The position numbers and the translations under genes were made by a program. Shown here piece by piece: positions 51,061 through 52,627 of a stretch of DNA of 53,992 bases. Source of the stretch: a virus. Location: IMG/VR virus record IMGVR_UViG_3300045107_000078, positions 1-53,992 of that record; one strand, written 5' to 3'. The notes under the pieces are model-generated. The model had not been told where the DNA came from. It searched no databases and saw nothing but the letters and a program-made list of their open reading frames with translations. Each line of letters begins with the position of its first letter. Position 1 is the stretch's first letter.

Positions 51061-51492
51061 TTACTCATCGTCCTCGCTTTTGAATATCTTGCTCAGGTTG
51101 CCCAGGTAGCCCTTGTCCAGGCCGCTCTCCTTCTTCTTCTGGCGACTGGCCTTGCCTACCGTCAGACCAGACTCGATCAACTTCTCAGCCACCAGCTGGG
51201 CCACCATGTCAGCGTTGGCCGTGAATATCTCACTCAATGCATCCTTCGACAGGGTGCTGCTACTGCTGGGCAGCTGCACCCCCAGGTGCTGGCTGATGAC
51301 ACCCACAATAACCTGCCGCAGCGAGTACAGCCGCCCCTGCTCGTCTCGCTGCTTCAGCCAGTGTTCGAGGAAGTCGTATACGGGCTTCTCTTCCTGCTTT
51401 GACGGATTGAGTTTGAAGCTGTACCCGACATCCTCAGCCGCCCGCTCGACCCGCTTGGTGCCCTTGTCGCTGCGGGGTTTGCGCGGTCTCAT
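51061..51492 (-). CDS. Possible ParR-like adaptor, 143 aa
   Basis: Small, very basic at both ends (RPRKPRSDKGTKR; KASRQKKKESGLDKG), helical in the middle, with its ATG overlapping the stop of the actin-like gene (TAATG). This pairing is typical of type II partition operons, where ParR binds parC and caps the filament. It has no recognised ribbon-helix-helix; identification rests on position and character. Confidence 0.5.
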   Translation of the reverse strand: MRPRKPRSDKGTKRVERAAEDVGYSFKLNPSKQEEKPVYDFLEHWLKQRDEQGRLYSLRQVIVGVISQHLGVQLPSSSSTLSKDALSEIFTANADMVAQLVAEKLIESGLTVGKASRQKKKESGLDKGYLGNLSKIFKSEDDE

Positions 51493-52550
51493 TATCCACC
51501 CTCACTGAGAACTGCATCGAACACCTGGGCGCCGCGCACGTTCGCCATGTGAATGTACTTCGGGTCTGTCACCAGATGCACGTTGCCGTGATTGAGGATG
51601 GCCTGAACCTTGTTGTACAGGATGCCGTTGCCGCCGCCGGTCAGGGCGATCAGGTCGTAGTCGGCGCCACCACCCAGGCTGGTCGTGTACAGGTTGAACA
51701 CATCATTGAGCACCGGATTGAGCGCCCGCTCCACCTCGCGTTCGCAGGGAATTTCGTATCCGCCGCCACGATAAACGTTGGTTTGGAGCGCCTGCTGGAG
51801 CCGATTCTCTGACGGTGCACCAGTCTTGAACCGGTCGCGGTAGACATGCTGGAGTTCCACCTTCAGTGCTTCAATGGCACTATTGATGCCATGCTCACCG
51901 CTGGCCGCGACGTTGTACCGGATGGTACCGTCCGCCGACACACCCAGGCACCCGCACGTCCCGCCGCCGATGTCCAGAATGCCAACCGCCAGACCGTTCA
52001 ATGGAGTTTCCCATCCCCGCTTGGTCTTGTTGAAGGCCATCATCGCGTAGCCGCCGAAGGGTTCTTCGAACGTCTGCACAGACAGGACAGGGAACTTGAA
52101 CTTGACGCCGCCGCATTCGAAGTTCCAGTTGCGCTTGATGCTGGCCCGCAGTTCGGCGCGGAACTCATAATCGGCGCTGGCATGGCTGGCGATCACGTCC
52201 AGGCCGCTCTCCAGTGATTCAGGGTTATTGAAGAACATGCGGGCGACCGCGCTGGCGAACAGGACGCCATAGTAGTCCACTGTGTATTTCGCACGGCGCT
52301 GGCGGCGGATGACCTCATAACTCTGCGCTGTCTCACCCACGACGAAGTAGCGGCCATCAATGGCGATAAAATCGAGAGGGGCGGTTTTGCCGTACCGGTC
52401 CATCGCGTTGGCGTAGGCGGCGGGGGTCAGTTCGGCAATCTTGTGGACGAACAGACACTCATATTCGCCGCAGACAATCTTGACGGCCCAGTTACCGCCA
52501 TCCATGATGAACTTGGGCAGACGTGAGATTTTGGGAATCGCTTTCGGCAT
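51492..52550 (-). CDS. Actin-like ATPase (ParM/Alp-type), 352 aa
   Basis: Actin/Hsp70-superfamily ATPase expected to form filaments. Phosphate-1 loop MDGGNWAVK (DGGN 17-20), phosphate-2 loop ILDIGGGTCG (191-200) and adenosine motif LTGGGNG (303-309) are present in order. Length matches ParM. With the small basic downstream gene it forms a likely DNA-segregation operon; phage Alps may also position DNA during replication. ATG 52550 was chosen; the ribosome binding site (GAGG) is distant. Confidence 0.85.
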   Translation of the reverse strand: MPKAIPKISRLPKFIMDGGNWAVKIVCGEYECLFVHKIAELTPAAYANAMDRYGKTAPLDFIAIDGRYFVVGETAQSYEVIRRQRRAKYTVDYYGVLFASAVARMFFNNPESLESGLDVIASHASADYEFRAELRASIKRNWNFECGGVKFKFPVLSVQTFEEPFGGYAMMAFNKTKRGWETPLNGLAVGILDIGGGTCGCLGVSADGTIRYNVAASGEHGINSAIEALKVELQHVYRDRFKTGAPSENRLQQALQTNVYRGGGYEIPCEREVERALNPVLNDVFNLYTTSLGGGADYDLIALTGGGNGILYNKVQAILNHGNVHLVTDPKYIHMANVRGAQVFDAVLSEGG

Positions 52551-52598
52551 GATATTGTGGTTTACCTCAGTATATCTCGATTGACCGATGTTTACTGA
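52551..52598 (-). repeat. Repeats in ParM leader (possible parC)
   Basis: The leader carries near-repeats CAGTAAAC and AGGTAAAC and inverted words CCTCAG/CTGAGG flanking the transcription start. TGAGGTAAAC recurs before the 51017 gene. Type II partition centromeres lie upstream of parM and overlap its promoter, so this is the place to expect parC; repeats are short. Confidence 0.35.
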
Positions 52599-52627
52599 AT
52601 TGTATAACGGTTTCTGAGGTGTGGCAA
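52599..52627 (-). promoter_or_regulatory. Promoter of actin-like operon
   Basis: On the minus strand TTGCCA (52627-52622), 17-bp spacer, TACAAT (52604-52599). The best sigma70-like promoter in the window. No copy of the 12-bp palindrome is near, so this operon may stay active when the others are repressed. Confidence 0.75.

Follow-up and report, generated by a model that had tools for sequence, protein, structure and literature searches.

Background and genomic context

The minus-strand genes located at positions 51061 to 52550 of the IMG/VR virus record IMGVR_UViG_3300045107_000078 raise the question of whether an actin-like ATPase and its small partner position the DNA of a tailed phage and, if so, whether they serve a prophage maintained as a plasmid, as the initial annotation proposed, or act during lytic growth or excision. 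Two-gene kits consisting of an actin filament and a DNA adaptor are already known from plasmids and several phages. The window analyzed comprises the entire record (53,992 bases), which is classed as linear and lacks end repeats. It represents a fragment, since the RNA ligase gene at 52740-53990(-) runs off the right end. Closure into a circle by joining both ends of the record is not supported: the joined RNA ligase frame continues for 25 residues past the joint and then stops, without a methionine.

Family searches identified genes for terminase, portal, major head, tail, holin, and spanin-like proteins, and DNA polymerase and helicase were not seen in the record by these searches, in which the 3054-aa ORF was compared with PHROGs alone. 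This ORF (30300-39464(+)) had no PHROG match. No close relatives were found for the terminase, and none for the portal in viral_contigs; the latter yielded two weak phage matches. Judged by these comparisons, the phage appears to be an unusual, isolated one without a close relative in the collections searched. Among the other genes, 17133-18269(+), just before the terminase gene, encodes a predicted fusion of an HTH and a metallophosphoesterase domain, with one palindrome preceding it at 17103 and another near its end at 18243, and 8648-10141(-) gave a match to a PHROG labelled as DNA topoisomerase (8.4e-33), besides a weak one to topoisomerase VI subunit A.

The ParM-like ATPase

The gene at 51492-52550(-) encodes a protein of 352 amino acids (P0001) recognized by PHROG, profile, and fold matches. 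It matched PHROG 691, described as 'partition protein', over residues 15-342 with an E value of 2.5e-20; in Pfam, MreB-like_C alone was recovered, below the cut-off. Searching with the single sequence by phmmer found no ParM. A three-member profile, composed of the window ATPase and its relatives L007 and L010, retrieved from the PDB the ParM of pSK41 (2e-11), followed by that of pCBH (9e-8), CorM (2.8e-5), and R1 ParM (1.7e-4).

All three nucleotide loops claimed for a ParM/Alp-type ATPase were recovered, and their key residues are invariant in comparison with plasmid ParMs. In alignment A1, comprising the window ATPase and four plasmid ParMs, this applies to D17, G19, D193, G195, T198, G305, and G306. 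They are distributed over the phosphate-1 loop (residues 14-26, FIMDGGNWAVKI, 52473-52511(-); D17 and G19), the phosphate-2 loop (residues 191-201, LDIGGGTCG, 51948-51980(-); D193, G195, and T198), and the adenosine loop (residues 302-312, LTGGGNGI, 51615-51647(-); G305 and G306), the residues of the latter two loops being invariant in A2 as well.

The AF2 model of the ATPase (pLDDT 68.8, pTM 0.62) gave ParMs as the best Foldseek matches, with E values down to 4.9e-16. In VIA, the ParM of Clostridium botulinum reached a Z score of 20.1 and Alp7A 19.4; Ta0583, ParMs, Alp7A, CorM, and MreB lay close together at Z scores of 18-20, and the actin fold of the ATPase is common to MreB and Hsp70. AlpC and PhuZ were absent among the 50 VIA matches listed, which has no bearing on kinship. 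As in ParMRC systems, the locus contains an actin-fold ATPase related to ParM, and on the grounds of profile and model, 51492-52550(-) is a real gene for a ParM-type actin-like ATPase.

The downstream gene, a probable adaptor

Directly downstream of the motor gene, in the arrangement of ParMRC systems, follows a small gene (51061-51492(-), 143 amino acids, P0002) that overlaps the end of the ATPase gene by TAATG. The coupling of a small basic protein, as initially annotated, is hence confirmed, and its basic character holds in part, being mild (25 K/R versus 21 D/E residues). No close relatives of this protein were found. It had no match in PHROGs or Pfam and one at chance level (0.13) in NCBIfam, and the PDB offered no meaningful match.

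A ribbon-helix-helix core is predicted for residues 24-71 (51280-51423(-)): in an AF2 model of low confidence (pLDDT 45), too poor to decide the matter, a strand-like SFKLNPS precedes helices at 36-52 and 58-69, and by eye this agrees with the pattern of other adaptors. The N-terminal half (SFKLNPS...DFLEHW...SLRQVIVGVISQHLG) would accordingly, again by eye, follow the ParR-like strand-helix-helix pattern.

For comparison, the small genes following parM at 11 other loci were collected from annotation, or from ORF lists in the case of L007 and L010; locus L002 had been excluded before the test, its 250-aa gene after parM being too unlike. The first profile tests were mixed: using pieces of the first 75 residues, the adaptor ranked third out of 2071 with the 11-member profile and was absent among the 12 best matches listed for the 8-member profile. 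A core-trimmed test, made after these results and with the core chosen by hand, gave the adaptor 7.4 bits against a held-out ribbon-helix-helix profile, a score that none of 1000 of its own shuffles equaled and none of the 70 other window proteins reached. In the same test, at most one in 1000 shuffles scored as high for six of the 11 other adaptors, and five failed. Among the eight comparison adaptors scanned, weak matches below the cut-off were obtained for those of KKP_3916 (Plasmid_stab_B, 0.0078) and API480 (RHH_1, 0.025). By the held-out profile test, the window small protein resembles the ribbon-helix-helix adaptors encoded downstream of other ParMs.

Relatives and known systems

The best tblastn matches of the ATPase were ParM/StbA proteins of Acinetobacter, Alteromonas, and Acidovorax plasmids with identities of 21-31%, the main Acinetobacter group sharing 22-23% over 92%; close relatives were found neither in viral_contigs nor in genome_contigs. 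One record, L002 (CAKLQH020000019.1), is named 'Acinetobacter phage MD-2021a' and was handled as a plasmid because it contains conjugation genes of the traI and traJ types. In the Alteromonas and Acidovorax plasmid loci fetched, the gene downstream of ParM/StbA likewise shows, by eye, a stretch resembling a ribbon-helix-helix; the conjugative-plasmid ParM/StbA genes lie among conjugation genes, of which none was seen in the window.

Among viruses, the ParM of the uncultivated virus L007 is 24% identical to the ATPase over residues 8-342, and L010 represents a second relative with a weaker match. In a tree of 13 ParMs, the window ATPase pairs with that of L007 (support 94/90), a grouping that may be false as both lie on long branches. 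The leader of the L007 parM gene (9900-10000 of that sequence) carries repeats that reach significance, among them TATACTTATCGTAAAC/GTTTACAGGATGTATA as an inverted pair, and is possibly a parC.

The ParM of L010 matches PHROG 691, as does the window ATPase, and used in tblastn it retrieved 24 phage records: 18 presumably of SPO1-type Bacillus phages (assigned by name, size, and match position), two of phage G, and four others, namely two Paenibacillus phages, phiT1, and KKP_3916. In each of the four phages inspected (SPO1, G, phiT1, and KKP_3916), the end of parM is overlapped by a small gene, so that SPO1 gp27.9/gp27.8 and phage G gp506/gp505 share with the window a ParM-like gene and an overlapping small gene. 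Unlike the window phage, SPO1 and phage G are large Bacillus phages, and they were reached through the L010 ParM; the window ATPase itself had no tblastn match to either at E 0.01. In phiT1, a replication protein and a recombinase are encoded near parM, and its gene set might resemble that of a plasmid-type phage.

The plasmid prophages B83 and IEBH (PMC6669507, PMC8026635) are likewise tailed phages in which an actin-like motor is encoded upstream of a small adaptor of the ribbon-helix-helix type. As differences, iterons in the 165 bp before parM are reported for B83, whereas the window leader contains no significant repeats, and in the window neither Xer nor Rep was seen and no close relative of its protein was found. 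A phage actin-like protein acting with a DNA-binding adaptor is also represented by AlpC and AlpA of CGP3, where, according to PMC4446434, the order of the alpAC genes is not that of ParM/ParR loci and the repeats bound by AlpA lie in the promoter. In contrast to CGP3, in which the adaptor gene precedes that of the actin, the motor gene comes first in the window and the leader repeats are not significant. The operon very probably represents a new and strongly divergent addition to the known phage ParM-adaptor operons, extending these to a phage without a close relative in the collections searched.

The leader region

A promoter-like site (TTGCCA-17-TACAAT, 52599-52627(-)) precedes the operon. 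The strong promoter of the initial annotation stands as a match to the -35/-10 consensus (10/12); it does not stand as a significant one, as two such sites occur in 2.5 kb versus 1.1 expected. Upstream of it, a terminator-like stem (52700-52725(-)) separates the operon from the RNA ligase gene, and together these elements make it plausible that the operon is an independent unit.

The short repeats noted in the leader, where parC would lie, proved to be at chance level in comparison with shuffles. The longest exact direct repeat within 52551-52680 is a single 6-mer, GTAAAC, occurring twice, and the 7-mer test of the 200-nt leader (52551-52750) also remained at chance level; leader iterons exceeding chance were rejected for both intervals. 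The 7-mer test is not a sensitive one, since it was negative in three of seven comparison operons (L003, L005, and L010); L004, L006, and L007 were positive, and L008 was so for direct repeats.

Scanning the whole window for other non-coding repeat arrays revealed none that was convincing. The only strong array beyond the leader consists of 21 copies of a 12-bp unit at 10215-10469, within gene 10033-10863(-). Its translation yields W/R-x-A-A repeats within a DUF7666 protein, the third codon positions being conserved as much as the others, and since it is coding it is unlikely to be a centromere. A ParB_N-like gene (3091-3702(-)) was rejected as a second partition system, its match being weak and short.

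The dispersed palindromes

The 'silencing network' of the initial annotation is real and represents a more unusual feature than the operon. AGAACCGGTTCT occurs in 17 exact copies in the window and in 36 copies when up to two mismatches are allowed, versus 1.5 expected. Furthermore, 29 sites of the GAGAACCGGTTCTC type with at least 16 bits span positions 273 to 53751, and 21 of them precede a gene start by at most 130 nt, versus 4.9 expected at random (gene starts were taken from our own gene caller). Neither G001 and G002 nor the 46 fetched IMG/VR stretches with the 14-mer, each containing one perfect 12-mer, showed the network. Mycobacteriophage L5 stoperators and phiC31 repeats are comparable operator networks, and the arrangement supports a similar role for the window palindromes. 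Candidate binders are two LexA-type mini proteins of 97 aa (2655-2948(-)) and 59 aa (7510-7689(-)), whose winged-helix matches fell short of the Pfam cut-off and which lack the peptidase part, because Gram-positive LexA boxes consist of GAAC/GTTC half-sites and share these with the palindromes.

The operon promoter was correctly described as free of palindromes in that the leader contains no strong copy, its best site reaching 6.0 bits at 52604. This is uninformative, as 16 of the 32 intergenic gaps of at least 25 nt contain no site either, so that a palindrome-free promoter as a sign of lysogenic expression was ruled out.

Probable function of the operon and its possible time of use

The presence of an actin-adaptor operon is borne out by sequence, fold, gene order, and the held-out adaptor test: the ATPase is of the ParM family and fold, the two genes are paired and coupled, and the adaptor resembles those of other ParM loci. 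The operon very probably represents a module by which a tailed phage positions its DNA in the manner of ParM and ParR, its most likely function being the movement or positioning of phage DNA. The ATPase would polymerize into a filament with ATP, and the small protein would dimerize via its N-terminal ribbon-helix-helix, recognize a site in the DNA of the phage, and use its C-terminal tail to hold the end of the filament. Filament growth would then move or separate phage DNA, the presumable cargo being its copies, either in a plasmid prophage or during lytic growth. An actin-like protein with a role other than partition, such as a takeover of the host cell structure, next to an unrelated small gene would agree with the nearly equal VIA scores of MreB, archaeal Ta0583, and the ParMs, and with an adaptor lacking a convincing family match; it is improbable in view of the profile and PHROG matches pointing to ParM, the gene order and coupling typical of ParM operons, and the held-out adaptor test.

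With respect to the time at which a DNA-positioning module would be used, two possibilities were weighed, and each falls somewhat short of an even chance. The operon may segregate a low-copy circular prophage whose lytic genes are silenced by the palindromes. The record has no integrase or serine recombinase, 21 of its 29 strong palindromes lie near gene starts, the operon is preceded by a promoter-like site of its own and by no strong palindrome, and ParM accompanied by a ribbon-helix-helix adaptor has precedents in B83, IEBH, and further plasmid prophages of Bacillus (PMC6669507, PMC8026635). However, the initial observation that no integrase is encoded, true of tyrosine integrases and serine recombinases in the 54-kb record, proves little, as does the absence of a replication gene, because the fragment is cut inside the RNA ligase gene. 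Neither a plasmid replication protein nor Xer was seen in this fragment, for which 25 of the 32 families in the Pfam census were listed, no iterons were found, gaps without palindromes are common in this genome, and positions 1-25000 had no near match in the plasmid collection. Alternatively, and to a comparable degree, the filament may, as proposed for AlpAC of CGP3, move or anchor replicating DNA of a phage that integrates or is virulent: the same gene pair occurs in phage G (506/505) and in SPO1 (27.9/27.8), which is lytic according to PMC3853049, relative G001 encodes a 539-aa serine recombinase (a resolvase-domain protein of large-serine-recombinase size, without a PF07508 match), and CGP3 is integrated and employs AlpAC for DNA transport (PMC4446434). 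Against this speak the great distance of the virus relatives (24% identity) and the operator-like network, which would suggest that the phage is temperate or repressed.

A plasmid prophage, as initially annotated, is therefore possible, and the odds between it and lytic or excision use are about equal: the missing integrase and the network are balanced by the fragmentary record, the lack of a Rep, and a gene pair that is not specific for plasmid prophages. As the same pair is present in lytic SPO1, a ParM operon is no proof of a plasmid prophage, and caution is advised in deducing one from such an operon alone. In agreement with this, possession of a partition system is no guarantee of a plasmid prophage according to PMC8026635, and the role of ParM in an SPO1-like phage was stated to be unknown in PMC3853049.

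Ribbon-helix-helix proteins can bind palindromes, and the phage-plasmid N15 possesses dispersed centromere sites. The 29 AGAACCGGTTCT-type palindromes might accordingly take the place of a compact parC as grip sites for the filament, a distributed centromere in which one family of sites combines silencing and DNA positioning, which we regard as very improbable. Were palindromes and operon shown to act together, the manner in which phages of this kind grip and transport their DNA would become testable. Compatible with a distributed centromere are the leader without significant iterons and a perfect AGAACCGGTTCT copy at 51027-51038, just downstream of the adaptor gene and upstream of 50649-51017.
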